Origin: Oscillatoriales cyanobacterium
GTDB lineage: Bacteria; Cyanobacteriota; Cyanobacteriia; CACIAM-69d
Direction of reading: 5' to 3'
Assembly (NCBI GenBank): GCA_004292515.1
Contig: RDXB01000056.1
Coordinates: 1-36,773 of the forward strand
Length of the DNA: 36,773 nt
Shown here: piece after piece, positions 4,166 to 32,929 of the stretch
Position numbering within the stretch: position 1 is the stretch's first letter
Layout: the number at the start of each line of letters is the position of its first letter
Notes under the pieces: model-generated
Databases searched by the model: none
Told to the model about the DNA's origin: nothing
Seen by the model: the letters and a program-made list of their open reading frames with translations, nothing else
Translations under genes and position numbers: made by a program

Positions 4166-4309
4166 GTCGTCATTTCCTGGTGACAAGCTGAAATGGTTGA
4201 TTTTCCAGGTCTCAATTTCCCGGATCATCGGTCGTAACAAGGGGCTTAAGCCCCTTGCCCCCCCACGACCCGCTCACGGCGGAATCAGGGTTTTGGGCGA
4301 AACGACGAC
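4166..4309. repeat. R-element copy 1 (3' of trmFO)
   Basis: The element is bounded by GTCGTCA (4166) and GACGAC (4304-4309). Centrally it carries the palindromic core AAGGGGCTTAAGCCCCTT at about 4239-4257. The left arm contains AAGCTGAAATGGTTGATTTTCC and the right arm GGAATCAGGGTTTTGGGC. Both arms recur in reverse orientation at 14083-14213 and 32750-32879 and in the same orientation at 22558-22688. It begins 6 bp after the trmFO stop and can fold into a long hairpin, so it may serve as a 3' UTR structure. The remainder, up to 4440, shows nothing else recognisable. Confidence 0.8.
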
Positions 4310-4440
4310 ACCCCCTCAGCAAGCAGTGCCAACCCCGACCCGATCGCGATGACTAAAATGGTCATGGGGATTGATTCACCGCACCCTCAATCCCAGGCCA
4401 TTGCATCGGGTTTTGGTTATTGAATTCAGGAGCGTGAACC

Positions 4441-5571: not shown

Positions 5572-5896
5572 GTCATCATTGCCCATCATGAGTCTGAAAT
5601 CGTCGATTTCCCACGCCTTAAGCGTCGTAATCAGTCAATCGTCGTAACAAGGGGCTTAAGGCGTGTCATCAAATGATCTTGATTGGGGCTAGAACGACCA
5701 ATTTTCCTAGCCCAACCGCCCTAGACAAGGGGCTTAAGCCCCTTGCTGCCCCACGATCAAGCAATGCCAGAATTAGGGTTTCAGGGATTAGATGACAGCC
5801 CCTAAGCCCCTTGCCCCTCACGATCAAGCAACGCCAGAATTAGGGTTTCAGGGATTAGATGACAGCCCCTAAGCCCCTTGCTGATCCGCGATCTCG
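5572..5896. repeat. cluster of nested R-element fragments
   Basis: This non-coding patch is built from broken R-elements. A left arm starts with GTCATCATT at 5572. The AAGGGGCTTAAG core is at about 5648, a full palindrome AAGGGGCTTAAGCCCCTT at 5727-5744, and half cores CCCCTAAGCCCCTTG at about 5800 and 5867. A 67-bp unit starting CACGATCAAGCA is duplicated in tandem at 5752-5818 and 5819-5885, with very few mismatches. The last right arm runs on into the aldolase gene. Positions 5457-5571 show no gene. Confidence 0.75.
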
Positions 5897-6535
5897 TCAC
5901 GGTAAAATCAGGGTTTCAGGCTCATTGATAACAAGCCCTAATAATGCTTGTAGGGGCTGGGCTGCGGTGGTTAAGTCGCAGCCAAAGGTTAATAGCCCCT
6001 CTGCATGGCCCGCCATTACCAAAATCCGATCGGTTCCTAAACTCGTTTCGTGAAATAAACGCCACATTTCTTGGGCCATTGCGGGTGTGCCGTAGGGAAC
6101 ATCGGCGCGGGTGGTGGGGAGTTGCTGTTGATGGCGCTGCCACAGGTCGCGATCGTGGATATGAATAATGGCCTGAATCTGCTGATCGTATTGATAAATG
6201 GCTGCATGGGTCAGCGATTCCGAGGAAGCACAAATGGGCCCAATACAGTGAAGCGAATTGCGATCGATATCCCAGCGATCGACGAGGGTGTAATGCTCGG
6301 GACTGGTGGTGATTAAATGACCCGTTTGGGTTCCCGAAATTAAGAAGCGATCGCCCCCCAATCTGATGCTGATGTTGCCATAACCGATGCCGTTGGGATC
6401 GACTCCAATTAACCCCCATTGAAAGAGGCGATCGCGCCATTGAATTAAGTCCAACAACTCCGGCACTGCGTCCGAGGCGATCGGCTCGCAGCGTTCCCAA
6501 TCACACTGAAATTTAATAACTCCATCGTCATGCAT
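5897..6535 (-). CDS. class II aldolase/adducin family protein, probable MtnB-like
   Basis: Class II aldolase-fold protein of about 212 residues from the ATG at 6535. The frame is open to 6628, but that would overlap mtnA, which ends at 6577. Family motifs are GYGNISIRL, LISGTQTGHL, CASSESLTHAAIY and the metal-ligand segment IIHIHDRDLWQRH, with a later His in MAGHAEGLLTFG. It lies 41 bp downstream of mtnA in the same direction. The natural reading is methylthioribulose-1-phosphate dehydratase or a related dehydratase/aldolase of methionine salvage; this comes from context, not from diagnostic residues. Its last residues (EPETLILP) and stop are encoded by the right arm of an R-element, so the C-terminus has been remodelled by repeat insertion. 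Confidence 0.85.
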   Translation of the reverse strand: MHDDGVIKFQCDWERCEPIASDAVPELLDLIQWRDRLFQWGLIGVDPNGIGYGNISIRLGGDRFLISGTQTGHLITTSPEHYTLVDRWDIDRNSLHCIGPICASSESLTHAAIYQYDQQIQAIIHIHDRDLWQRHQQQLPTTRADVPYGTPAMAQEMWRLFHETSLGTDRILVMAGHAEGLLTFGCDLTTAAQPLQALLGLVINEPETLILP

Positions 6536-14082: not shown

Positions 14083-14213
14083 GTCGTCAAAATCACCCAC
14101 AGCCGTGATTCCACCGGGACGAAATCGTGGGGGGGCAAGGGGCTTAAGCCCCTTGTCTACTGGGGTTGGGGTCAGGGAATCAACCGTTGCAGCGTGCCCC
14201 AGTCCATCACGAC
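14083..14213. repeat. R-element copy (3' of the ABC ATPase gene)
   Basis: Reverse-orientation copy, 131 bp. It starts GTCGTCA at 14083 and has the core AAGGGGCTTAAGCCCCTT at about 14138-14155. The distal arm carries GGAATCAACCGTTGCAGC and the end is a degraded TCACGAC at 14207-14213. It begins 5 bp beyond the TAG stop (14219) of the minus-strand ABC ATPase gene and extends towards the start of paralogue A. Confidence 0.8.
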
Positions 14214-15494: not shown

Positions 15495-17660
15495 TTGACG
15501 ACTCCTCTGCTGCTCACGCTCTCCCCTCCCGATCGAACCGTGTCCCACGAATTTCAGCCCGGAGATTTGATTAACGATCGCTACCAAGTGGAGCGCAAAT
15601 TAGGCTCCGGAGGGTTTGCCCACACCTACTTAGTCCGCGATCGCCAGGCCAATGATGATCCCCGCGCCGTCAAGCAATTTGTGCCGGCCATGATCCGCGA
15701 CGACCACCGAGCGAAGGCCCGAGAACTCTTCGATCGGGAAATCGATACCCTGCGCGAACTGAGCTATCCCCAAGTGCCTGGGTTTCACGACTCCTTTGAG
15801 TGGGACGATGGCTTCTTTTTGGTTCAGGAATTTATCGACGGCAAAACCTACAGTGAGCTGATTACCGAAAACCTGCGGCTCCAAAAAACCTTCACAGAAG
15901 CCGAGGTCAAACAGTGGCTGCAAGATTTGTTGCCCTTGCTGCACGACTTGCACGGACGGCGCATCTATCACCGGGACATCAAGCCCGCTAACATCATTCG
16001 CCCCCACAATGGTGGCCAGCCGGTGCTGATCGACTTTGGGGCCGTGAAGTGGCAAATGACCACAATGCTGGCCAGCGGCGGCGCGGCTTCGTCGATCATT
16101 GGCACTCAAGGCTATGCTGCCCCCGAACAACTGCTGCGGGGCACGGCCGATGCCCGCACGGATCTCTACTCCCTGGGCATGACGGCCTTGGTGATGCTGA
16201 CGGGCAAAGAACCCCAAGCGTTGGTCAATCCCGATGGGGAAGTGCAGTGGAACGAGCTGGACTTAGCGGTTTCTCCCGAGTTTGCCGACCTGTTGAATCG
16301 GTTGGTGCAAATGAAGCCGAGCGATCGCTACGACAGTGCCAAAACCGTGTTGGGCGAGTTGCAGGGGCGATCGACTCCTCCAACGGCCCTAGACCAGGCC
16401 GCAGCCGCGGCCTCGCCCTACAATCCCCCAACGGTTTTTGATCCATCACCAACATCGGGAACAACGGCGATCGAGGATTCTCAGCCGCTACCCAGTCGCC
16501 AACCGCGATCGAACCGGCCCCCACTGATCGCAGCGGCGATCGCAGCGGCTTTGGTCGTCGTGGGCGGCGGCGGCTGGGCCGCAATTCCCCATTCCGACCT
16601 GTGCAAAACCTTCAAGAACTGCGCCAAGGAAGGGGAGTGGAAAACCCAATATCAAGAAGGGCGCGAATTTTTGCGAGTGGCCCAAGCCACGGGCAGCACC
16701 GCCACGGTCGCCGACCTGGAACGCACGATCGCCAATCTCGATTCTGGGATCAAGCGACTGGCGCAAGTGCCCGCCCTGTCCCAAAACTACGAAGCCGCCC
16801 AACAGGAACTCACCAACGCCAACACCCTGAAACAGCAGTACGAAGCTCAATTAGCCACGCTCCGACAAACGGAAGGCTCCTACAGCCAAGCCGAGCAAGA
16901 TCTCAGCAAAGCCCGAGCCGCCTTGACCAGCTACCAAACGCCCCAGGAGCTGGAAACGGCGATCGCCTCCGCCAAGGCCGCTTTGCAAACCTTGCAGGCA
17001 ATTGCCCCCGATCAGCCCACCCACGATCGGGCCCAATTACTCGCAAAACAGGAAGCGAAACTGCCCGACGAGCTGGCTCAACTGTTGCAAGCCGAGCAGG
17101 CAGCCGTCACCGCCCTAGAGCAGGTGAAGGTGTTGGATGCTGAGATTCAGCAAGCAACCGCAGGTGCTAGCCAAGTGGATCAGCGTCAAAAATTGGCTAG
17201 TTATCGTAAGGCCCAGGGTTTGATTGAGCAGGCGATCCAACTACTACAAAACGATGACTTTTCTAAAACCAAGTCATCAGTTTCCATTCAAAGGGAATTG
17301 CAGTCTTATCAACATAAACAGCGCACAACCAACTCCCTGATCGCTGGTCTGCAACCTCCGCCTTCGAGTACAGCATCTAGCCAGTCTGACACCCCATCCA
17401 CCACGTCTGCCTCATCCACCACATCTCCTCGATCGGGGGATCGATCAGGGGGTCGATCGCGCACTGGCGGCAGTGCTCGTGTGAGTTCCAGCAGTAGTAG
17501 CAGTTTTAGGAGCGGTTCAAGCAGCAGCCGTACCGCGAACAGAGGTGGTAACTCTGGCTCTAACAGTTCTCGATCGCGACCACCTAGCCAACCCAGGCAA
17601 CGGCCCCAACCCAAACCCAAACCTTCAGGATTGATTGTGCCGCCAGTTGAGTTGGAGTAG
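15495..17660 (+). CDS. transmembrane Ser/Thr protein kinase
   Basis: Hanks-type kinase. Seen are the glycine loop KLGSGGFAHTYLV (35-47), the ATP-binding lysine in RAVKQF (60), catalytic HRDIKPANI (159-167), DFGAVK (180-185), and an activation segment ending GYAAPEQ. One membrane helix (about 343-364) separates the cytosolic kinase from an outer part. The outer part has CKTFKNCAKEGEW just after the helix, a long coiled coil (about 385-570), and a Ser/Arg/Pro-rich low-complexity tail with poly-Ser tracts. The frame begins at a TTG (15495); GTG at 15540 (SHEFQPGDLINDRY) is a likely alternative. Outer cysteines plus a coiled coil suggest a sensor, but the signal is unknown. It is convergent with the gene ending at 17671. 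Confidence 0.93.
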   Translation: MTTPLLLTLSPPDRTVSHEFQPGDLINDRYQVERKLGSGGFAHTYLVRDRQANDDPRAVKQFVPAMIRDDHRAKARELFDREIDTLRELSYPQVPGFHDSFEWDDGFFLVQEFIDGKTYSELITENLRLQKTFTEAEVKQWLQDLLPLLHDLHGRRIYHRDIKPANIIRPHNGGQPVLIDFGAVKWQMTTMLASGGAASSIIGTQGYAAPEQLLRGTADARTDLYSLGMTALVMLTGKEPQALVNPDGEVQWNELDLAVSPEFADLLNRLVQMKPSDRYDSAKTVLGELQGRSTPPTALDQAAAAASPYNPPTVFDPSPTSGTTAIEDSQPLPSRQPRSNRPPLIAAAIAAALVVVGGGGWAAIPHSDLCKTFKNCAKEGEWKTQYQEGREFLRVAQATGSTATVADLERTIANLDSGIKRLAQVPALSQNYEAAQQELTNANTLKQQYEAQLATLRQTEGSYSQAEQDLSKARAALTSYQTPQELETAIASAKAALQTLQAIAPDQPTHDRAQLLAKQEAKLPDELAQLLQAEQAAVTALEQVKVLDAEIQQATAGASQVDQRQKLASYRKAQGLIEQAIQLLQNDDFSKTKSSVSIQRELQSYQHKQRTTNSLIAGLQPPPSSTASSQSDTPSTTSASSTTSPRSGDRSGGRSRTGGSARVSSSSSSSFRSGSSSSRTANRGGNSGSNSSRSRPPSQPRQRPQPKPKPSGLIVPPVELE

Positions 17661-17670
17661 GGATACTAGC

Positions 17671-18033
17671 TCAATCTAACAAGCCCGATCGCTCCAAAAT
17701 CCATTGGCTCCACTGACTCGATCGGGCCAACACCACCTGACGGCGATCGACGCTTGACCACAGCACCGGCCAATCGGCCAACCATTGAACGATCTGCCGT
17801 TGAATCGCTACTAGCTCGATCGCCACTGGTAAATCGGTCTCCGGCGCTGCCCATTCAATAAACCAACCGCTTTCCCGCAACAAACTAGAAATGAGCTGCC
17901 CATTATTGGGATTTTTGCCAAAGGATTTGACCCGCGCTAAATTAGCCGCAATACCGCCTAAACGAACTGCCAAGCTGTCGCGAATATACCGATCGCGCCG
18001 ATTCAGAAAGTCACTCGTAGAAGTGTCTAACAT
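17671..18033 (-). CDS. conserved-looking hypothetical protein paired with GUN4
   Basis: About 120 residues from the ATG at 18033. The frame is open to a TTG at 18150, overlapping the GUN4 gene. The body (RDRYIRDSLAVRLGGIAANLARVKSF, then ESGWFIEWAAPETDLPVAIELVAIQRQIVQW, ending ILERSGLLD) is helical and well formed, with a distribution of hydrophobic residues expected of a real domain. I cannot name the family. It starts 13 bp after the GUN4 stop, so the two are probably co-transcribed. The 3' end is 10 bp from the convergent kinase stop. Confidence 0.7.
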   Translation of the reverse strand: MLDTSTSDFLNRRDRYIRDSLAVRLGGIAANLARVKSFGKNPNNGQLISSLLRESGWFIEWAAPETDLPVAIELVAIQRQIVQWLADWPVLWSSVDRRQVVLARSSQWSQWILERSGLLD

Positions 18034-18046
18034 AGAAACTTTCTGA

Positions 18047-18568
18047 CTACTCAATACCGCGCCATAGAAGTAAGCAAAATGATTTACTAATATGGCCACA
18101 TTTTCCATCATGCCAAAAACTTGTACAACTCCAAGTTGGCAAGTGACCAATGCAAGCAGAGTTATTGAAATTGATCTGAGAGTAACTCAACCACTCTTCA
18201 TAATCGCGCCAGTGAACTTTGTCTCCCCATTTACATAGAGAAACTACTGATTCGTGAATCGGTATAAGTTCCTTATTGCTACTGAGGTCAAGTTTGGGAT
18301 AGTGGTTTTTTGTAATTTCTCTATAGAGTTTTGATTGAACACTCAGTCCAAATTTACCTGATGAATACTCAAGCCATAGATAATCAATAGTTCTCAAAAT
18401 ATCCTGAGAGAGACTGATCATATCTTGAGATTCTGGAGAGTCTCCTAGAGAGCAGCTAGAAGCTTTTCTTAAAAGATAGTTAGTCTCTTGATCAGCTTGT
18501 TTCCACACCCCTAAAGCAAGAAGATCTTTTAGAGGTGTGTAACTTATTTCAGGAGTACGCTCTTTCAT
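18047..18568 (-). CDS. GUN4 domain-containing protein
   Basis: The 173-aa protein matches the GUN4 domain across most of its length: YTPLKDLLALGVWKQADQETNYLL, then IDYLWLEYSSGKFGLSVQSKLYREI, a KWGDKVHW segment and a final GHLPTW. In Mg-chelatase activation, GUN4 binds porphyrin. Stand-alone or multidomain GUN4 proteins are common in cyanobacteria and many have unknown partners. This one lacks an N-terminal helical bundle, so it is probably not the housekeeping chelatase activator. The gene is more A+T-rich than its neighbours, hinting at separate ancestry. The region after GHLPTW (to RGIE) is poorly conserved-looking, but I see no need to postulate a frameshift. Confidence 0.85.
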   Translation of the reverse strand: MKERTPEISYTPLKDLLALGVWKQADQETNYLLRKASSCSLGDSPESQDMISLSQDILRTIDYLWLEYSSGKFGLSVQSKLYREITKNHYPKLDLSSNKELIPIHESVVSLCKWGDKVHWRDYEEWLSYSQINFNNSACIGHLPTWSCTSFWHDGKCGHISKSFCLLLWRGIE

Positions 18569-22557: not shown

Positions 22558-22688
22558 GTCGTGATTGCTGGAGGTCCCGCTGAAATCGTTGATTTGCCAC
22601 ACCGCAACCGCAGTAGACAATTAGCTCAAGCCCCTTGCCCCTCACGATCCGCTAACGGTGGAATCAGGGTTTCAGGCAGTTTGACGAC
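22558..22688. repeat. R-element copy (3' of the tubulin-like gene)
   Basis: The 131-bp copy runs from GTCGTGA (22558) to TGACGAC (22682-22688). Its arms are GCTGAAATCGTTGATTT and GGTGGAATCAGGGTTTCAGG, and its core is half-decayed (GCTCAAGCCCCTTGC). It ends 2 bp from the TAG stop (22691) of the tubulin-like gene on the minus strand. Confidence 0.8.
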
Positions 22689-22690
22689 CC

Positions 22691-25600
22691 CTAACTCAAG
22701 AGCTTGTCCAACGCCGCGCTGTACGCAGACTGATCCATCAAACCTTCCCGATACATTTCGGTCAGTTGCTCAAACTTGCCTTGCAGCTTGGTTTTGGCAG
22801 ACTCACAAGCGGCTGAGTCCAAAAACCCTGCTTGCTCAAGGCCATCAATTTGGGCCAGCTTGGCCTGCAACCGGGCCACAACCGTTGCAGGGTCGAAATC
22901 AACTGCCTTGACTGTCGGTTGAGGCGTTGGCGTTGGTTCCGGTTGAGGCGTTGGCGTTGGTTCCGGCTGGGGTGCGGCGAGCGGGGTGGGATCGGGCGGC
23001 ACTTCGATCGCCACGCCCGTCAGCTTGAATTGGGTGAAGATGTCCGAGATGATTTTGGCTTCTCGACGATAGATCGGGCTGTCTTTGCCCCCCAACTTGT
23101 CGAGGTTAATCGCCCGTTGATCCAGGTACTGTTTAAAGGTTTGGGCGATCGCGGCCTTTTGCTCCTCGGTTTCTGCTTGGGTCAGCTTTTGATCAATTTG
23201 GTGATCAATCGCCGCGCGATCGGCCTGACAAGCCCGCACCTCCAACACCTGCACCGCCTCATCCCAAGTGGAAGCCACATCAATGCTGTCCTTGCTTCCG
23301 AAGTTGTTATCCACCTGATAACGAATCGTTGGCTCTTTGGTCGAAGCATTCACGTCTTCCCACAGCAAGCCCAACGCCCGAGCCAGCACCACGGTTTTGT
23401 AAACGCGGGCATCTTCAGGAAACACATCCCAGAACGGCGCTTCCTTTTGCAGATGCACCGGAATCGGCAGCTCCCGACTTTCGCCCTTCAGTTGGGCCCG
23501 CTTGGCCACAATCATCTCGCCCAGCCAATCTTGGTAGGACTGCCGCAACTCCCGCATCCCATCAATACAGCGCAAGGAGAACCCGCCCGTTTCTTGGACA
23601 AACACCATCCGGTGACGCTCGGGATCACCCAGGGGCTTAATGTTATCCTCGCTGCCCACAAACTCCGGCAACAACTTCAAGACCTTCTGAGCCGCTGGGT
23701 CGGCCGTGCGCGGCCCACCCAAAATCGCTGCATTCAGGTTGTGAGCCGGCGTAAAGCCCGCATCCTTGCCGGACATCGTGGTTTTGGACAGCAACAGCAA
23801 GGGCTGAGACTTGTTCACCGCGATTCGCAGGTTGTTTTTTAGGCTCTCCTCATCGTTGTAAGTGCGATAGAGCAGATCGCAAGCCGCCAGTTCCATCCGC
23901 AATCGACTCCCTTCAGGCGCGCGCATAATTTCCTGGCGCGTCCGATTGCTGATCAGTTCTCGCAGATCCTCGCGTTTTGCATCGGGGATTTCGGTCATGT
24001 CCCACAGCCGCATCACTTCATTAGCGCTGCGATTGTCTTTCCAAAGGGGACTAGCGGTTTTAAGGATGTCCTCAGACATCGTGCCGCAGGTGGCATCCAG
24101 CCCCACCTCACGACGGGCCCGGGCCCCTTCACTCAGACCAGCAAACTGTTCAAGCAGGTCATCATAAAGACCATTCATATCATCGCGCTCGAACAGCTTC
24201 ACCCCGTTGATGTCCAATACGTCGGCGCTGTCTGCCTGCCGATCGGCCTGTTCTTTAAAGCCATCGCGTAGTTCAATCAGCCGCTGCGTAAACCGATTCA
24301 AACGCCGTTCTAGATCGGTGACTTGCTCATCGAGCCGAGCCAACACTTCCAACCCCAGGGCGCGGGCCTTGCGCTGAATTTTGGCGCAGAAGTGACCTTC
24401 AATCCCAATCAGAGATTCTTCGGCAAACTTCTCCATATTCGACTGTTTGGTCAAGCCGTACTTGTCCCGAAACTCCACAATTTCCTGGAGCGCAGCATTG
24501 TATTGCTTCAGGCGATTGTCTTCGTTTTTCGCCCAGACATTATCCTGTTCGCGCCGGTACTTTTCGGCAGCATCCGTGAAGATTTGGCGGGCCAAGATCA
24601 AGAACTGCTCGGCAAATTTGGGGCCACGGGTGCGATCGGTCAAAATCGCATAGAGTTCTTCTTCTAACACCTTGCGCGCCCGAATTGTCACCTCGTCTGC
24701 ATTGCTATACATCCGAGTGAAGTAGTCTCCATGGGCGCGGCGATCGGGCGTTTGATCGCGTAGGTGATCGCGTCCATACTCATCAACCTTATCGATTAAA
24801 TAATTATTGAACTGCATGATCTTGCCCCGCTCAGAGCCGATCAAGCTTGCGCCCTGCAAGGTGCATTCCAGCAAGTTTTGATTGCTAATTTCGGTGCGGA
24901 TGCCGTTGACCCATTTACTAATCACCGAGGTGTAAGGCTGATCCTGTGCGGCACTCAAATCGCCCAACAATTCATTGGCTGTCAGGCGCATGGTTTTGAG
25001 CATTTGATCGCGCACCAAGTCCAGCATTTGTGGGGGGAGCATGACGCGATCGTTGAGCCACCAACTGACCAAATCAGTGGCCAAACGATTAGCCAATGAG
25101 GTGCGGATTTGGGCGATCGGGATTTCGATCGTCGAAAGCCCAAAGCTCATGAAACAACGGGGATAGCTGCGGCCACCGGGATCAGGTTGAGCAAAAGATC
25201 CCTTGATGTTGTCGCGGATCGATCGCTTGTGGGGGGCAAAGTCGGAAGTCATATCCAAAAAGATATGCTGCGCAATAATTTCCCGAACTTGATCTAATTT
25301 GAAATTCACATTTTCGTTTTTTGTCCCTACCAAATAGGTAAAGTCAAAAGGTGCTTTCGGATTTTGGATCTCATCCACAGTCCCTGAGCTGAAGGACACG
25401 TTATATTCTGTGCGGTGATCCGAAAAATAGCTCAATTCCATCAGGGCCGCGTAGCCATTAGCCAACACGCGATCGCCCACTTTGATCCCGGCAAAGGCAT
25501 TCGGCATCGGCACCACAGCCGTCATCGAACAAGATTCACCCTTAGCCCAATCACGAATCGCATAGGCAATATCAATCAGCATTCCGCTGCCGGTTCCCCC

Positions 25601-26119
25601 AGACAGGGAACCCGTCACAAACACATTCACCTGGTTGCCCGCAACTTTTACCTTATAGGTATCTTGCATATAGTTTTCGCGGCGCTGCACATTGCTCATC
25701 ACCGCCTTGAACTTGTCGCGGATATCGTGATAGTTCATGAAAAAGGCAAAGCGCCCGCAAGCCCGAATTTGCCCCGCCCCAGCTTCCAAGGAAGTCAAAT
25801 TACGCTGCAATTCCGTGGGAAACCAGCGTTGAATCCAGGGATATTTGTCCATATCCGCCACCACATCTTGGGCTTGCTTACTAGTAACCCTTGCCCAGTG
25901 GCGTTCGTTGTCCTTGAATGGGGGGCCGGCGGCTTCAGGGTTAGAGACTTTGTAATCCTTGTCGGTATCGATCGCCAGGTAGCCTAAAATCGGGAACTTA
26001 TCCAAGCTGCCGTAGGTTTCGACAACCAAGCGCCGTACCCGCGACAACACCTCTGCACCAGTGCCACCAATGCCCACCAAGATCGTGGGAACCATGCTTT
26101 TTTCTTCAACGGCTGCCAT
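22691..26119 (-). CDS. tubulin-like GTPase (Tubulin_2 type), 1142 aa
   Basis: Large cytosolic protein with a tubulin/FtsZ-type nucleotide domain. It has a glycine loop VGIGGTGAEVLSRVRR (15-30), AIDTD (49-53), and the tubulin signature VTGSLSGGTGSGM (168-180). A long helical region follows, with coiled-coil stretches at about 480-640, then a globular part. A Pro-rich linker PEPTPTPQ repeated (from a 24-bp tandem repeat at 22917-22964) leads to two short helical hairpins, the last (LTEMYREGLMDQSAYSAALDKLL) resembling SHOCT modules. It matches the bacterial tubulin-like proteins annotated as Tubulin_2; related families have been linked computationally to VWA proteins and membrane remodelling. 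AAGGGG lies about 10 nt before the ATG. The downstream gene of a probable three-gene unit. Confidence 0.9.
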   Translation of the reverse strand: MAAVEEKSMVPTILVGIGGTGAEVLSRVRRLVVETYGSLDKFPILGYLAIDTDKDYKVSNPEAAGPPFKDNERHWARVTSKQAQDVVADMDKYPWIQRWFPTELQRNLTSLEAGAGQIRACGRFAFFMNYHDIRDKFKAVMSNVQRRENYMQDTYKVKVAGNQVNVFVTGSLSGGTGSGMLIDIAYAIRDWAKGESCSMTAVVPMPNAFAGIKVGDRVLANGYAALMELSYFSDHRTEYNVSFSSGTVDEIQNPKAPFDFTYLVGTKNENVNFKLDQVREIIAQHIFLDMTSDFAPHKRSIRDNIKGSFAQPDPGGRSYPRCFMSFGLSTIEIPIAQIRTSLANRLATDLVSWWLNDRVMLPPQMLDLVRDQMLKTMRLTANELLGDLSAAQDQPYTSVISKWVNGIRTEISNQNLLECTLQGASLIGSERGKIMQFNNYLIDKVDEYGRDHLRDQTPDRRAHGDYFTRMYSNADEVTIRARKVLEEELYAILTDRTRGPKFAEQFLILARQIFTDAAEKYRREQDNVWAKNEDNRLKQYNAALQEIVEFRDKYGLTKQSNMEKFAEESLIGIEGHFCAKIQRKARALGLEVLARLDEQVTDLERRLNRFTQRLIELRDGFKEQADRQADSADVLDINGVKLFERDDMNGLYDDLLEQFAGLSEGARARREVGLDATCGTMSEDILKTASPLWKDNRSANEVMRLWDMTEIPDAKREDLRELISNRTRQEIMRAPEGSRLRMELAACDLLYRTYNDEESLKNNLRIAVNKSQPLLLLSKTTMSGKDAGFTPAHNLNAAILGGPRTADPAAQKVLKLLPEFVGSEDNIKPLGDPERHRMVFVQETGGFSLRCIDGMRELRQSYQDWLGEMIVAKRAQLKGESRELPIPVHLQKEAPFWDVFPEDARVYKTVVLARALGLLWEDVNASTKEPTIRYQVDNNFGSKDSIDVASTWDEAVQVLEVRACQADRAAIDHQIDQKLTQAETEEQKAAIAQTFKQYLDQRAINLDKLGGKDSPIYRREAKIISDIFTQFKLTGVAIEVPPDPTPLAAPQPEPTPTPQPEPTPTPQPTVKAVDFDPATVVARLQAKLAQIDGLEQAGFLDSAACESAKTKLQGKFEQLTEMYREGLMDQSAYSAALDKLLS
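22917..22964. repeat. 24-bp tandem repeat x2 in coding sequence
   Basis: Two perfect copies of a 24-bp unit beginning GGTTGAGGCGTTGG, followed by a partial third copy. On the minus strand it encodes the octapeptide PEPTPTPQ, a flexible linker before the C-terminal helical modules of the tubulin-like protein. Copy number could vary between strains. Confidence 0.85.
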
Positions 26120-26243
26120 AGGAATGACCCCTTCTAAGGAGTGGGAATTGGGAGAGTCGAGAGGGTTGGGTGATTGGGAACAGAAAGGCTGAGAAAAATG
26201 ATCATGAGGCGATCGCCCGATCGCCCTCAGCCCCCCAGATTTC

Positions 26244-27170
26244 CTAACACTTAGAAAACAACGGCAATTGCAAAATCTTCAGCAAATTCCAGACAATAAT
26301 CGGGGTGGCCGAACTCCAAAATAGACCATGGCCGATCGCAATTCGACCCGCCATGTCAAATCGCAACCCCATCGTTTTTTGCAAGAGGCGATCGAGTGGC
26401 AACACCAACGCCCACATCAACGCCAGCCAAGCACCTCCCAAACAAATAATCACCCAGTTCAGATTGCTATTCACCCTGGGGAAAAACCGCTGCGTAAACG
26501 CACTACTTAGCTCACTGGCCGCATTGGCAGCGAAATAAGAACCACCCGTTTTGACCGCCCCTGCTTGCAGATTCTGGACTGGATCACCCAAGATCAAGAA
26601 ATTCAACTTAACTTGGCTGGCCAGCGCCCTAGCAACCAGTTCAGGATTCAACTCCGCTTGGCCATCGGTAAAGACCAGCAGCTCTTTGCAGCCCTGCTTG
26701 GCGGTGCTGAGATCGGTCAACCCCTTTTGGACGGCCATGTTGACATCCGTCGCGGAAGGAATCACCTGTTGGGCCACATTGTTGGGGGAATTGGGCTGAA
26801 TGGCTGCATCGATCGCCCCGGTCAAGGCTGCTGCGTCGCTGCTAAAGTCCTTCGTCAAATCCACCACCGCCCCCCCAAAGCCCAACACTTTGATCTGATT
26901 GGGTTTTTTCAGGTTTTGGCTATTGAGATTGATATAAGACTTGACCGCTTTGACAGCCTCATCGGAAACCGTCCCGGCAGCCCCGAGCTGACCCGTGCCG
27001 CTGTTATAGGTGCTACTGCTCAGATCTAGGGCAACTACTACGGACACATTGCCTGGTTGGCCCCACTGCAACAGCGAACACAACAGGGCCGCAATCAAAA
27101 AGGCGATACAGATAATCAGCGGCCGTTGGAACAGGCCGTAGCGATAGAAGGGGCGTGTTGAATTGCTCAC
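26244..27170 (-). CDS. VWA-domain membrane protein
   Basis: The 308-aa protein has a first membrane helix (18-36), then a von Willebrand A domain starting SVVVALDLSSS (43-53). This holds a full MIDAS Asp-x-Ser-x-Ser, a later Thr in PSATDVNMAVQKGL and an Asp in LLVFTDGQAE. Two or three C-terminal helices follow (about 238-262 and 280-302). The VWA domain therefore probably sits outside the cytoplasmic membrane, clamped between helices, as in Bat-type proteins. It could bind a partner in a Mg2+-dependent way. The GTG start reads SNSTRPF. It lies 124 bp upstream of the tubulin-like gene and 166 bp downstream of the binding-protein fusion, all on one strand. Confidence 0.9.
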   Translation of the reverse strand: MSNSTRPFYRYGLFQRPLIICIAFLIAALLCSLLQWGQPGNVSVVVALDLSSSTYNSGTGQLGAAGTVSDEAVKAVKSYINLNSQNLKKPNQIKVLGFGGAVVDLTKDFSSDAAALTGAIDAAIQPNSPNNVAQQVIPSATDVNMAVQKGLTDLSTAKQGCKELLVFTDGQAELNPELVARALASQVKLNFLILGDPVQNLQAGAVKTGGSYFAANAASELSSAFTQRFFPRVNSNLNWVIICLGGAWLALMWALVLPLDRLLQKTMGLRFDMAGRIAIGHGLFWSSATPIIVWNLLKILQLPLFSKC

Positions 27171-27210
27171 AAGATTAACGCAGGGAAGGAAAGCAGACGG
27201 GGGACTAGCA

Positions 27211-27324
27211 ATGGTTCAGGGCGATTGTGTTAGTAGATGACAGATGACCCTGAACCATCCCTGAACCATCTATGGCCACGGAATAGGGGGTTGACTCGTC
27301 ACGGCATGGCCGTTAAGTGACGAG
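27211..27324. promoter_or_regulatory. inverted repeats between the SBP-fusion and VWA genes
   Basis: Two structures lie in the 166-bp gap. The hairpin CTCGTCAC (27295-27302) / GTGACGAG (27317-27324) starts 12 bp after the SBP-fusion stop and has no T-tract. Next to it, ATGGTTCAGGG (27211-27221) is the reverse complement of CCCTGAACCAT, which occurs twice in tandem (27248-27258, 27259-27269). That gives alternative 11-bp stems and suggests an attenuator, a processing site or a dyad operator. Confidence 0.5.
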
Positions 27325-27336
27325 CCAGCCAGGCCG

Positions 27337-29088
27337 TTAGTTGGTGGGAATCGGATCGAACTGGTATTTGGAGCCAGAGGGCCGACCATCAGCGGGGCCA
27401 GCGTTGCCCTTGGCTTTCACCGCTTGGACGAGGGGCACGCGATCGAACGTATCCACCCGTGAGGCTGCCCCCAACAGTTCAATGCCCCCCATCAGTTTGG
27501 CCGATGCTCCCTGGCGGTTGGGGTTTTGCTTCAAGGCTCCCATCAAGCCGCGAGCCGCATCATAGGCCGTGCTGGTGCGCCAGCTTACTCGCCCCTTCCA
27601 CAGCTCTGAAGACTGTTCCGCAAAGTTGTTGCCCTCAGCCGAGTTCCAAGGCACGGCCAAGACCAGCCCTTCGATCGCCTTGTCTCCTCGCACCAAAGTT
27701 TGGGGCGAGTAGAGTTCATCGCCACCAATCAGCAGCAACTTGGGACCTTTTATGTTGGCTTGCACAATGTCGTAGGCTTCCCGTTCGCGATCGCGCGACA
27801 TGGCCAGGAAAATGACCTTAGCCCCCTCCTTCTTCGCCGCTGCCACCGAGGCTGCCGCATCAAAGCCCGGCCGAGCCAAGTCCACCGCATCATCTGCACC
27901 ATTGCCCAATCGGAGGAAAGACCCCCCAGACTGATTCAGGAACTTGCTGAACTGCTCTTTGAGGGTCTTGCTGTAGGGACTATCGGAGTTGTAGAACACA
28001 GCCACGGGCGATCGCGGAGCCTTCACGCTCACATAATTCGCTAAAGATCGCCCCACACCCGATAAATACTTGTCTGACAGTGCATTCCCGCCACTGGGCA
28101 CATTCGGTGCGGGGGGCGGCAGCATTTTCAACGTAGACTTCTCGCCATTGTTGGGTTCCACCTGGGTGGTCAGGGGCGACAACACGGGCAACCCAGCAGT
28201 AGCATAGGTGCGAATTGCTTGTTGGCTGCTGGCATCCAACCCGTGGCCCAGCACACCCAAGACCGATTGAGCATTCACCAAATCCTGGGCCAAAGTCGGG
28301 GTGATCGCCTGGTTGGTGCTATCCACGATCATCACTTCCATCATCTGCTGCGGATTCAGGGGATCGCGGTTGTACTCGTCTTGGTATTGAGCAACACCTC
28401 GCAAAATTTCCTGAGCCGTTTCGGGCGCTGGGGTGATCGGCACCACAACGGCGATCGTGATCGGGTTACCAGCCACCCGCGCCCGGGCATTGTTGAAATA
28501 GATTTTGCTTTCAGGATCGTTCTTATTCTCGTTGGCGGCTTGGTTATACTCTCCTTGCGCTTCCTGCCAGTTCTTGGCGCGGAAGGCAGCTTCACCCTCT
28601 TTTTTGCTGCGGCTCGTGAGGTTTGTGAATAGAATGCGTTCTCCCTGACTGATGCGATCGCGATTTTGAATCCCCGGTAGCTCACTCACCAACTGTGTCG
28701 CGTTCGGCCCCGGGGGTGGCACAAGGGTCGATGTTGGACTCACGGTGGGGTTCCCTGGCGTAGTTGCCCCCCCTGGAGTCACGCCTGGACTACCTGAGGT
28801 GCCCTGATTACCTGGAGAAGAGGGAGTAACAGCAACACTGCCTTTATTGCCGCTTCCCTGATTGAGCAGCGCGTAAGCACCACCCCCGAGCAAACCGATC
28901 GCAGCGACGGCCGCCGCCGCCTTTTGCCACAGGGGCATTCCCCCCCCACCGGGACTATTTAAGTTACTAACAACGGTTCCGCCGCCCTGTACCTCAGCTT
29001 GCGATCGCCCGCAAATATCGCAGGTTGAGCCAAAATTCTGATGGGGTTCGTGGGGGTCATTAGGCAGGCCTTTACAAGTCCAACTCAC
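27337..29088 (-). CDS. zinc-ribbon / TM / TPR / periplasmic-binding-protein fusion
   Basis: The 583-aa protein has an unusual order. An N-terminal Cys5, His13/His16, Cys23-x2-Cys26 zinc-ribbon-like module is followed by a membrane helix (56-75), a Gly/Pro/Ser/Thr linker (78-130), and a TPR-like segment (EGEAAFRAKNWQEAQGEYNQA). From about 208 comes a type I periplasmic-binding fold of the LivK/Peripla_BP_6 class (ITIAVVVPI..., later VIFLAM and LLLIGGDELYSP). The zinc module should face the cytosol and the ligand-binding domain the periplasm, so it looks like a receptor more than a transport cofactor. No permease is adjacent. GTG start (SWTCKGL) with AGGTAA just upstream. Divergent from the FHA-ABC gene. 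Confidence 0.9.
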   Translation of the reverse strand: MSWTCKGLPNDPHEPHQNFGSTCDICGRSQAEVQGGGTVVSNLNSPGGGGMPLWQKAAAAVAAIGLLGGGAYALLNQGSGNKGSVAVTPSSPGNQGTSGSPGVTPGGATTPGNPTVSPTSTLVPPPGPNATQLVSELPGIQNRDRISQGERILFTNLTSRSKKEGEAAFRAKNWQEAQGEYNQAANENKNDPESKIYFNNARARVAGNPITIAVVVPITPAPETAQEILRGVAQYQDEYNRDPLNPQQMMEVMIVDSTNQAITPTLAQDLVNAQSVLGVLGHGLDASSQQAIRTYATAGLPVLSPLTTQVEPNNGEKSTLKMLPPPAPNVPSGGNALSDKYLSGVGRSLANYVSVKAPRSPVAVFYNSDSPYSKTLKEQFSKFLNQSGGSFLRLGNGADDAVDLARPGFDAAASVAAAKKEGAKVIFLAMSRDREREAYDIVQANIKGPKLLLIGGDELYSPQTLVRGDKAIEGLVLAVPWNSAEGNNFAEQSSELWKGRVSWRTSTAYDAARGLMGALKQNPNRQGASAKLMGGIELLGAASRVDTFDRVPLVQAVKAKGNAGPADGRPSGSKYQFDPIPTN

Positions 29089-29646
29089 GCCGAATTACCT
29101 CAGTGATTGTAGGGATAGATGTGATGTGGGAAAGAGCGAATTTTGGGAGATGCGGACGACGCAGCAGGCTGGTATGCAAACTGGCATTAATTTAGTCGAT
29201 TTAGCTGAACTAATCACCACTCTTTTTTAAAGATTGCATCTTAAGCTATGACAAATGCTTGACAATTCCCGGTCTGGCCATGCCTTTATTGAGCATAGGT
29301 AACACAGATACCGATGGCCAATCAGCATCACCCATCACAGCACCCTAGGTCTACAGCACCCTAGGTCTATCGGCAGCGATCGCCCCCTTTCATGCAACTC
29401 ATTCCGCACGCAATTTTTAGGGACTGGCCAAACCCAGTCTTTATTGTAATTTTTATTACTTTTATTGACTAACTTACACGGAGACTCGCACGCCAGCTGC
29501 TTGGGTTGAGCAATACCCAGACCACCCCGGGGCGATCGCTCAAAATGTTGCTGAAATCACAACTCAACACCAAAATTGCCCCCGCTGAACCCTGATTGCC
29601 CCGCCCGACTCAGACCCTATCCCCGCACTCGACCCATCAACCCACC
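29089..29646. promoter_or_regulatory. long divergent intergenic region
   Basis: About 550 bp between the SBP-fusion gene and the FHA-ABC gene, with A+T-rich blocks and no credible gene. TTGACA at 29259-29264 is a good -35 candidate, but its -10 is weak. A 16-bp unit, ACAGCACCCTAGGTCT, occurs twice in tandem (29337-29368), each with a CCTAGG palindrome, as might bind a dimeric regulator. A TTTATT-rich stretch lies at about 29440-29470. Confidence 0.5.
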
Positions 29647-32172
29647 ATGCAAGGCTCAGAAACTGTTTTTGGGAATGCTCCTCATCTCTACGTCGCGGCC
29701 CAGGGGCAACGGCTGGACTTTACCCTGACGGCCGATCGCTATGTGCTGGGGCGAGAACAGTCCCTAGCCGATTTGGTCGTGCCCAAGGAGTGGGCCACAG
29801 TGTCTGGTTATCACGCGGTGTTGGTTAAACGGGGCGAAGATTACTGGATTTTTGATGGGATTAATCCAAACACAGGTCAGCCCAGCACCAATGGTCTATT
29901 GCTGGAAAACACACGATTAACGGGGACTGAAGCGAGCGGCCAGGGTTTTCGACTCACCCACGGGATTAAGCTCCAAATTGGTCAAAACCCCGTCACGGCC
30001 GTCACGCTCACGTATTTCGACCCAGCCCGAGCCTTGGCGCAGCGGGAGTTAGTCGCCCCAAGTCTGATCGGCTCGGTGGATCTCCGGCAAGGGCGGGTGT
30101 TGTTGGGACGCAGTGCGGATGCCTCAATCGAACTCGACTCCCCCCTGGTGTCTCGGCAGCACGCCACGATCGAGCGATCGAGCACCGGCTACGTGTTGCA
30201 AGACCTCAGCACCAATGGCACCTTCATCAACGGGATTCGAGTCAGCAAACAAGCCGCGCTACCCGATCGCGCGATCGTCCGCATTGGCCCCTTCACCCTG
30301 GTGCGGCTGGGCGATCAACTAACCCTCAGTGACGAAGGCAACCGGATTCGCCTCGATGCCCATAATCTCTCTCTGAATGGTCGTCGCCGGGAGTGGGTGG
30401 GCCTGGCCGGTTTGGGTAAAGAGCAGATTGATGGGGACAAAACTGCCTGGTTTGGGCTGCAACGCAAGCGCACCTTTCCCCGTTTGCAAAGCGTGACCAT
30501 GCCGATCGAACCAGGACAACTGGTGGCCCTTGTGGGGGGTAGCGGGGCCGGCAAGTCCACCCTGATGCGCAACCTGTTGGGCATCGAGCACCCCGACACC
30601 GGCGCGACCTACATCAACAGCACCGCTCTGCGCGATAACTTCAACCTCTATCGCAACCAAATTGGTTATGTGCCCCAGCAAGACATCTTGCACCGCGATC
30701 TGACCGTTAAAGAAGCCCTGACCTACACCGCCCAACTGCGACTGCCCACCGACCAATCCCTAGCCACCAGGGTTGACCAAGCCCTCCGCGATGTGGACAT
30801 GGCCCACAAAACCAATGATTTGGTGCGGGATCTGAGCGGGGGCCAACTGAAGCGGGTCAGCATTGCCGCAGAGCTGATTGCTGATCCCAAGCTGTTTTTC
30901 TTGGATGAGCCAACCTCAGGGCTTGATCCCGGCTTGGACAAGAAAATGATGCTGTTGTTGCAAAAGCTGGCCAAGGAGGGCAACCGGACGATCGTGCTGG
31001 TGACCCATGCCACAGCCAATATTGAACTTTGCGATCGCGTAGCCTTTTTGGGTCGGGGCGGCAAGCTCTGCTACTTTGGCCCACCGGCTGAGGCGCTGGA
31101 CTTCTTTCGGGTTGATTCTGAGGATTTTGCTGACATCTATCTGGCCCTAGAACCCGGCGATGCGAAAGCCACCGATCAAGCCGTGAATCAGTGGTCTGCT
31201 GAATTTCGGTATTCCAAGGACTACACCACCTACGTCGATCAGCGATTGGTACGCGCAGAACCCAATTCCAAACTCACAACCAAAATACCGTCGAAGATCA
31301 GTCCAAGTGCATCGGAGCTGCCCCGATCGCCCGTCCAGCAATGGCAAACCCTCAGTGAGCGCTACTGGAAAATGGTGCTGCGCGATCAACTAAAACTGGC
31401 GATCGCCCTGCTGACGGGGCCGGTCGCGATCGCGCTGATCGGCCTGGCCGTTCGCAACGCTGACGTGTTACTTCCCAGCGAACTGGACGCGCGATCGGCC
31501 TCCCTGGCCCTGCGAGTCTTGTTTGTCTTCACCTGTGCGGGCCTGTGGGTGGGCCTCTCGGGGGCAATTCAGGAAATTGTCAAAGAACAAGAAATCTACA
31601 GCCGTGAACGCTTGGTCAACTTAGGACTCTTGCCCTATTTAGGCTCCAAGCTGACGGTATTAGGCGGCTTGGCCCTGCTGCAAACGGTGTTGACCGTGAC
31701 AGTCATTGCCCTGTTTTTTAAAAATCCTGAACCCGACACCTTGCCCTGGCTGTTGGGCGTGGCGATCACCACCTTACTCACCCTTTTCAGCAGCCTTTCT
31801 TTGGGCTTGTTAGTTTCAACGGGGACGCGCAACAGTGCCCAAGCCAATACCCTAGTTCCGCTGATTTTGTTACCCCAAATTATTTTCTCGGGGGTGCTGT
31901 TCAAAATGGAGGGAGCTGGTGAATATATTTCCTGGTTGATGTTGGGTCGTTGGTCTGTGGGCGCTTACGGCAGCTTGGTGAATGTGAATAGCCTGGTTCC
32001 CAATATGCCCCCGATGCCGAACGGTCAACCAATGCCCCTGCCATTTGAACCCACTGCAGTTTATGACCCGACTTGGGAGAATTTGGGCTGGAACTTTGCG
32101 GCGTTTGGCATTCATATTTTGGTCTACTTGGGTCTGACCTTATGGTTACAAAAGCGGAAAGATTTAGTTTAA
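29647..32172 (+). CDS. FHA-FHA-ABC pump with fused membrane domain
   Basis: About 841 residues from the ATG at 29647. The frame is open to a TTG at 29596; residue numbers here use that longer frame. An atypical first FHA domain lies at about 48-135 and a canonical second one at 167-240 (GRSADASIELDSPLVSRQHA ... LSTNGTFING), which should read phosphothreonine. Then comes an ABCG-like ATPase: Walker A GGSGAGKST (314-322), signature LSGGQLKR (413-420), Walker B LFFLDEPTSGLD. An ABC-2 type membrane domain with about six helices completes a half-transporter. Such FHA-modulated exporters occur in cyanobacteria, but the substrate is unknown. A nearby Ser/Thr kinase could phosphorylate the partners. 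Divergent from the tubulin-like/VWA/SBP unit. Confidence 0.93.
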   Translation: MQGSETVFGNAPHLYVAAQGQRLDFTLTADRYVLGREQSLADLVVPKEWATVSGYHAVLVKRGEDYWIFDGINPNTGQPSTNGLLLENTRLTGTEASGQGFRLTHGIKLQIGQNPVTAVTLTYFDPARALAQRELVAPSLIGSVDLRQGRVLLGRSADASIELDSPLVSRQHATIERSSTGYVLQDLSTNGTFINGIRVSKQAALPDRAIVRIGPFTLVRLGDQLTLSDEGNRIRLDAHNLSLNGRRREWVGLAGLGKEQIDGDKTAWFGLQRKRTFPRLQSVTMPIEPGQLVALVGGSGAGKSTLMRNLLGIEHPDTGATYINSTALRDNFNLYRNQIGYVPQQDILHRDLTVKEALTYTAQLRLPTDQSLATRVDQALRDVDMAHKTNDLVRDLSGGQLKRVSIAAELIADPKLFFLDEPTSGLDPGLDKKMMLLLQKLAKEGNRTIVLVTHATANIELCDRVAFLGRGGKLCYFGPPAEALDFFRVDSEDFADIYLALEPGDAKATDQAVNQWSAEFRYSKDYTTYVDQRLVRAEPNSKLTTKIPSKISPSASELPRSPVQQWQTLSERYWKMVLRDQLKLAIALLTGPVAIALIGLAVRNADVLLPSELDARSASLALRVLFVFTCAGLWVGLSGAIQEIVKEQEIYSRERLVNLGLLPYLGSKLTVLGGLALLQTVLTVTVIALFFKNPEPDTLPWLLGVAITTLLTLFSSLSLGLLVSTGTRNSAQANTLVPLILLPQIIFSGVLFKMEGAGEYISWLMLGRWSVGAYGSLVNVNSLVPNMPPMPNGQPMPLPFEPTAVYDPTWENLGWNFAAFGIHILVYLGLTLWLQKRKDLV

Positions 32173-32730: not shown

Positions 32731-32749
32731 CGGACTGGGGCTAGGGTCT

Positions 32750-32879
32750 GTCGTCAAATCGCCCAAAACCCTGATTTCACCGTGACGGAATCGTGGGCAG
32801 CAAGATGCTCAAGCCTCTTGTTACGACGACTGGAGCAAGGAAGATCAACCGTTTCAGCTTGCTCCCAGGCAATGACGAC
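32750..32879. repeat. R-element copy near 32.8 kb
   Basis: A 130-bp reverse-orientation copy bounded by GTCGTCA (32750) and TGACGAC (32873-32879). The core is decayed to AAGATGCTCAAGCCTCTTG. The distal arm carries AAGATCAACCGTTTCAGCTTGC. It follows the small hypothetical gene. Confidence 0.8.
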
Positions 32880-32929
32880 AAGCCCCAAGGCGATCGGGAC
32901 AACTGCCCAGCAATCAGCCCATCAGCCGT

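Follow-up and report, generated by a model that had tools for sequence, protein, structure and literature searches.

Zinc-ribbon receptors with solute-binding domains accompany Tubulin_2 proteins in cyanobacteria: a candidate transmembrane sensing module

Within the window, the 36,773-nucleotide stretch of cyanobacterial DNA analyzed here, four intact open reading frames were found that had been proposed in an initial annotation as a candidate envelope system, and both the reading frames and their domains stand far above chance expectation (Table 1). Three of the genes lie on the minus strand, separated by gaps of 124 and 166 bp, and are read as an operon in which a receptor gene comes first, followed by genes for a VWA membrane protein and a tubulin-like protein. 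The fourth gene, encoding an ABC transporter with FHA domains, diverges from the receptor gene across an intergenic region that possibly serves both as a shared promoter region. This adjoining ABC gene is of the exporter type, and no importer permease gene is found beside the receptor gene in the window.

Table 1. Features of the locus, in window coordinates.
Feature	Position	Strand	Basis or note
Tubulin_2 (FtsZl1, type 1) putative GTPase, 1142 aa	22691..26119	-	PF13809 E 4e-105; AF2 pLDDT 84.7; CetZ Z 24.5
Tubulin: Pro/Thr linker and helical SHOCT-like tail, residues 1042-1142	22694..22996	-	homologue comparison
Tubulin: remainder of second domain, residues 791-902	23414..23749	-	conserved motif, model
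Tubulin: helical/coiled-coil insertion within the fold, ~residues 360-790	23750..25042	-	VIA-align; edges inferred from DSSP string
Tubulin: GTPase domain and start of second domain, residues 9-355	25055..26095	-	AF2 model, fold match, alignment
Tubulin: T4 loop GGTGSG	25583-25600	-	inside 25055..26095
VWA membrane protein, 308 aa	26244..27170	-	AF2 model, alignment, TM prediction
Single-pass receptor, 583 aa	27337..29088	-	domains, TM prediction, alignment
Divergent intergenic region, receptor/exporter	29089..29595	.	507 bp, from gene coordinates
FHA-FHA-ABC exporter (Rv1747-like), optional neighbour, not core	29596..32172	+	Pfam domains

The tubulin signature reported for the last gene of the operon, GGTGSGM at residues 174-180, is borne out by a PF13809 score of 352 bits against a cut-off of 27, and GGTGSG is invariant in 38/38 aligned rows spanning the three types of the family described below. 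A model predicted with AF2 from these 38 rows (pLDDT 84.7) was compared with known folds using VIA-align: CetZ of Methanosaeta is matched at Z 24.5 over 311 residues (rmsd 4.0) and tubulins at Z 20-23 over up to 352 residues, with sequence identities to these folds of 10-17%. The matched tubulin residues are spread over residues 9-902 of the model, the comparison hardly extending to the stretch past residue 902. As modelled, the protein seems to contain a whole tubulin fold, nearest to that of CetZ, whose second domain is split by a helical insertion of ~430 residues; this insertion and a long C-terminal extension set it apart from CetZ and the tubulins. The authors who described the family found no counterpart of the second tubulin domain (Makarova and Koonin, 2010; PMC2875224), whereas the present model places one behind the long insertion. 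Residues F847, L849, R850, G854 and Y862 of the 791-902 motif are invariant. Long helices (499-551 and 558-634, among others) are present in the model, and its C-terminal part is mostly helical. Judged from these features, the window protein is a member of Tubulin_2/FtsZl1 with a GTP-binding motif and a coiled coil, for which GTP hydrolysis and polymerisation are predicted.

The tail of the window tubulin gives no Pfam match above cut-off. In other type-1 proteins the tails that follow the Pro-rich linker comprise a zinc ribbon, SHOCT or GYF_2, each scoring above its Pfam cut-off in one example. A sequence search for solved relatives of Tubulin_2 returned none, its sole match being to the PT-rich linker; the same linker accounts for meaningless NCBIfam matches to Internalin and TonB, and a viral fold library gave one weak FtsZ match only.

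The second protein of the operon is composed of a first transmembrane helix (12-33), a VWA domain (37-236), a second transmembrane helix (237-254) and a third helix (271-299) whose membrane insertion is uncertain. Pfam alone supports the VWA assignment weakly (E 0.11); the assignment is settled by an AF2 model (pLDDT 87.6), since this matches VWA folds at Z ~22. As initially annotated, the MIDAS is intact, with DLSSS at 49-53 and a downstream TDG. Cys161, within the VWA domain, and Cys308, the last residue, are invariant in 20/20 rows. The VWA domain has been lost at least twice, the membrane core staying beside the receptor: in Geitlerinema and Phormidium both cysteines are gone together with the domain, whereas the short protein of Leptolyngbya PCC 7375, which also lacks the domain, contains two cysteines at other places. 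A periplasmic Cys161-Cys308 disulfide may be guessed from this pattern.

The receptor consists of a zinc-ribbon-like module (3-26), a transmembrane helix (57-75), a linker, a TPR-like region (149-201) and a Peripla_BP_6 domain (209-521, E 3.5e-9), the closest solved relatives of which bind amino acids. The module, transmembrane helix and ligand domain of the initial annotation are thus present; its placement of the module in the cytosol is a prediction, as is zinc binding, which is suggested by residues invariant among homologues (W3, C5, G7, H13, P15, N18, C23, C26). Type-1 receptors carry one of three sensors: Peripla_BP_6, PBP_like_2 (found by scanning at locus L072, with L080, L085 and L088 placed by its cluster), or Phosphonate-bd plus an SNase domain. 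The last is known from a Cylindrospermopsis plasmid (L172, 8639-14102), which encodes, besides a type-1 tubulin, a divergent receptor with zinc ribbon, Phosphonate-bd and SNase domains fused in one protein. Both the Peripla_BP_6 and PBP_like_2 kinds occur inside each tubulin clade, and the type of solute-binding protein (SBP) domain switches within clades. Separately, the genome of the window has tandem zinc-ribbon/SBP receptor genes on contig C60 (L121, 188-1972 and 2179-4011) with no tubulin or VWA gene nearby, and at L069 (572-3585) a COP23-domain gene and a trypsin/TPR/WD40 protein gene lie near a kinase that adjoins the receptor, with similar sets at L051, L070 and L076.

Alignment of the window tubulin with its relatives and a scan of the genome collection yielded 44 loci, nearly all labelled cyanobacterial. 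When neighbouring genes were collected by tblastn and clustering, three families recurred: the tubulin itself, the VWA family at 24 loci and the receptor family at 18. The operon of receptor, VWA protein and Tubulin_2 recurs across many families, and the order is fixed wherever all three stand together. Among the 17 draft genomes behind the scanned loci, the zinc-ribbon profile of the type-1 receptor (ZnR1) was matched in 15, once weakly, and the VWA family in 14, three of these matches being partial.

Co-occurrence was examined across 195 cyanobacterial genomes from 109 genera. Type-1 tubulins, defined by scores >1600 bits (the next class scoring <=540) with one further genome counted from fragments, are present in 16/195 genomes, most of which are supplied by a single genus. 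The VWA family is found in 16 genomes, 15 of them shared with the tubulin, the one that lacks the tubulin being a draft genome with a completeness score of 90%. ZnR1 is found at E ~1e-11 or better in 18 genomes, including all 16 with the tubulin, although, as the ZnR profiles were built from tubulin loci, some of the absences elsewhere may be due to the narrowness of the model. Each association with the type-1 tubulin has p ~1e-20. At the level of genera, the tubulin is accompanied by VWA in 5/6 (p 5e-8) and by ZnR1 in 6/6 (p 3e-9), and conversely the tubulin is found in 5/5 VWA genera and 6/7 zinc-ribbon genera. The genus supplying most type-1 genomes carries the three genes at widely separated chromosomal positions, and co-occurrence is therefore not mere hitch-hiking within an operon. 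Similarly, all seven Microcystis genomes checked contain one receptor each, on a contig other than that of the tubulin. Against a strict pairing, ZnR1 proteins are also found apart from type-1 tubulin, in G148, in G055 and as an extra tandem pair in G000. The receptor, VWA and tubulin genes are all absent from two genomes of the genus to which the window belongs; in G018 and G035, of the same genus, the two flanks lie on separate contigs, so that a clean empty insertion site could not be demonstrated.

A second type of Tubulin_2, ~31% identical to type 1 and with no VWA gene next door, repeats this pairing with different parts. The type-2 tubulin is present in 21 genomes, and 20/21 also have a receptor with a CPKC..CEIC zinc ribbon and one predicted transmembrane helix (p 2e-26); in the remaining genome the tubulin gene is cut off by the end of its contig. 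Strong matches to a profile of the receptor's N-terminus (E <1e-20) are confined to those 20 genomes. Outside one genus, where the receptor is present but unlinked, its gene lies directly downstream of the tubulin gene at 13/13 intact loci. Those type-2 receptors that were scanned have an SBP domain, either Peripla_BP_6 or PBP_like_2. Type-1 genomes lack the type-2 receptor and type-2 genomes lack the type-1 receptor, and a tree separates types 1, 2 and 3 (98/98, 100/99, 100/100). As the VWA gene is missing from Microcystis and from type-2 loci, the VWA protein is, by gene content, not essential to the pairing of receptor and tubulin. Since two unrelated zinc ribbons share one plan of transmembrane helix and SBP domain, the link of ribbon to tubulin is argued to be the part that has been kept. 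Comparative genomics demonstrates the pairing of cognate receptor and tubulin types, and we infer from it that the two take part in signalling.

Together these data suggest, with about an even chance of being correct, that receptor, VWA protein and Tubulin_2 form a three-part transmembrane sensing module controlling a membrane-tethered tubulin. Specifically, the single-pass receptor would bind a small solute in the periplasm through its exchangeable SBP domain while its zinc ribbon faces the cytosol. The VWA protein would sit beside it in the inner membrane with the MIDAS-bearing domain in the periplasm, and the cytosolic partner would be the large tubulin-fold GTPase with its coiled-coil insertion and adaptor tail. 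Acting through the zinc ribbon, and in type 1 also through the VWA protein, ligand binding would alter how the tubulin binds GTP or assembles at the membrane, and the tubulin would then execute the response; the exporter would be an optional neighbour that may serve as an output in some few lineages. The predicted elements of this scheme are its topology, the direct contact between the proteins, the gating by ligand and the assembly. A cytosolic protein kept with a receptor of fixed plan is best explained as its partner, because the pairing was kept through two unrelated zinc ribbons and repeated exchange of sensors. A stronger form, in which periplasmic ligand gates assembly of the tubulin-fold GTPase directly by way of one receptor family with exchangeable sensors, adaptor tails and two unrelated zinc-ribbon couplers, is proposed only tentatively and is judged less likely than not. 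If the receptor does gate the tubulin, bacteria would possess a cytoskeletal GTPase that is coupled directly to a ligand outside the cell.

That Tubulin_2 genes adjoin VWA genes has been known since 2010, when FtsZl1/vWA operons with the same tubulin family, coiled coil and adjacent VWA gene were described, cyanobacterial members included (Makarova and Koonin, 2010; PMC2875224). OmpA-like, kinase and P-loop GTPase partners appear there as frequent, not constant; no OmpA-like or kinase gene, and no P-loop GTPase short of a divergent one, was recognized in the operon of the window. Noting an Arthrospira case with a branched-chain amino acid binding protein next door, one reviewer of that paper proposed a role in transport or signalling; the objection was also raised in review that a cytosolic tubulin could not act with periplasmic partners (PMC2875224). 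The receptor described here, a constant companion that spans the membrane once and is predicted to have its zinc ribbon in the cytosol, would remove that objection and provides a concrete candidate for the partner. Neither a zinc-ribbon receptor nor a test of co-occurrence nor an exchange of modules is found in the main text of the 2010 paper. Within the literature found, the receptor pairing, the insertion and the exchange of modules are new: the open literature yielded no description of the pairing, of which the supplementary tables of that paper may hold an earlier notice, and no experimental test of any Tubulin_2 protein since 2010.

The function proposed in 2010 was membrane remodelling, in which a tubulin polymer bends or organizes the membrane and the other genes provide scaffolding. 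The shared protein family, the VWA neighbour and the whole tubulin fold of the model agree with it. However, the OmpA partner of the published operon fits a third type of Tubulin_2, whose operon resembles the published one, comprises VWA, tubulin, a MotA/ExbB-like gene and an OmpA/MotB-like gene (the latter two below Pfam cut-off) and was seen at five loci (L037, L040, L047, L049, L170). The type-1 and type-2 genes that were read showed no MotA-like or OmpA/MotB-like neighbours, and sensing accounts better for a constant partner that has a ligand-binding domain, so that remodelling is considered unlikely for these two types, to which the sensing reading is limited.

Metal or iron homeostasis, with the receptor sensing a metal complex and the tubulin controlling uptake or storage, is suggested by gene neighbourhoods: Microcystis and Crocosphaera-type genomes have genes for a ferritin-like protein and an FTR1 iron permease immediately before the receptor gene (L178, 4117-5503; L179, 7301-8687; L060, 4011-5477), even where the tubulin has moved away. 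This arrangement was seen in one clade only, however, neither the window nor the type-2 loci showing any noticeable iron genes, and the amino acid ligands of the nearest solved Peripla_BP_6 relatives also speak against it; iron homeostasis is accordingly judged improbable. A role in anti-phage or other conflict is rated lower again. GTPase-centric conflict systems combine a tubulin with a membrane vWA protein whose domain lies outside, as is predicted here (Kaur et al., 2020; PMC7159879), and three non-cyanobacterial Tubulin_2 loci, which keep other company than types 1 and 2, place the gene near brxL, caspase-family genes or an AAA/DUF2357 pair (L180, L181, L182), neighbours that resemble those of defence genes. 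The published systems, however, contain DO-GTPases and GAP1, none of which was recognized in Pfam scans of the window genes (GAP1 having no dedicated profile). PADLOC found no match in tubulin, VWA protein or receptor and only generic ATPase matches in the exporter, and no further gene is constant at type-1 loci as a possible effector.

The exporter combines two FHA domains (the second at 169-231), an ATPase (297-441) and an ABC2 membrane domain (581-782) in one chain, and its four aligned homologues show a mean column identity of 67%. The FHA motif residues are conserved, and phosphothreonine binding is predicted. Rv1747 of Mycobacterium tuberculosis likewise joins two FHA domains to an ABC transporter in one chain, and its FHA I binds a phosphothreonine partner (PMC5549992); in the window, by contrast, no kinase gene of the pknF type adjoins the exporter, the recognized kinase (15495-17660) lying ~11.9 kb away. 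Nor is there a kinase gene within the operon, from which this nearest recognized one ends ~5 kb away, and the initial proposal of phosphorylation as the switch is not upheld. Ser/Thr kinases do occur near some type-1 loci, but kinases are numerous in cyanobacteria, and a linkage to the operon is at most possible.

The exporter gene lies near the type-1 operon at four loci: the window, L051 of the same family, L054 of Spirulina and L064 of Trichocoleus. These count as three lineages, against 0.15-0.3 expected if a 5-Mb genome holds one or two copies (p 5e-4 to 4e-3), which suggests a linkage that is probably genuine but only occasional. A four-part system with the pump as obligate, phosphorylation-gated output is the least probable reading of all: the window, its relative G061 and Spirulina have the pump gene adjoining the receptor gene in divergent orientation (with a TnpB gene between them in Spirulina), and within the window's family the pump comes and goes with the other three genes, but 27 of the about 40/195 genomes that encode it lack type-1 tubulin (13 have it), three type-1 genomes lack the pump, most type-1 loci have none nearby, and the association among genera is weak (4/6 tubulin genera versus 20/103 others, p 0.02). 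Thus, co-occurrence and adjacency of the four annotated genes are near-perfect and frequent, respectively, for receptor, VWA protein and tubulin and do not extend to the pump; the data support coupling of an envelope receptor to a tubulin, and a core role for the pump is rejected.

Two further features of the window were observed. A dispersed intergenic repeat of ~45-150 bp, shared with genomes of the same genus, is present at 4239-4312, 5727-5935, 14093-14193, 22594-22691 and 32742-32886, and includes copies immediately beyond the tubulin gene and beyond the gene that follows the exporter. In addition, a GUN4-like open reading frame (18047-18568) overlaps one in a different frame that has no Pfam match (17671-18150), and the two (17671-18568) are possibly a single frameshifted gene.
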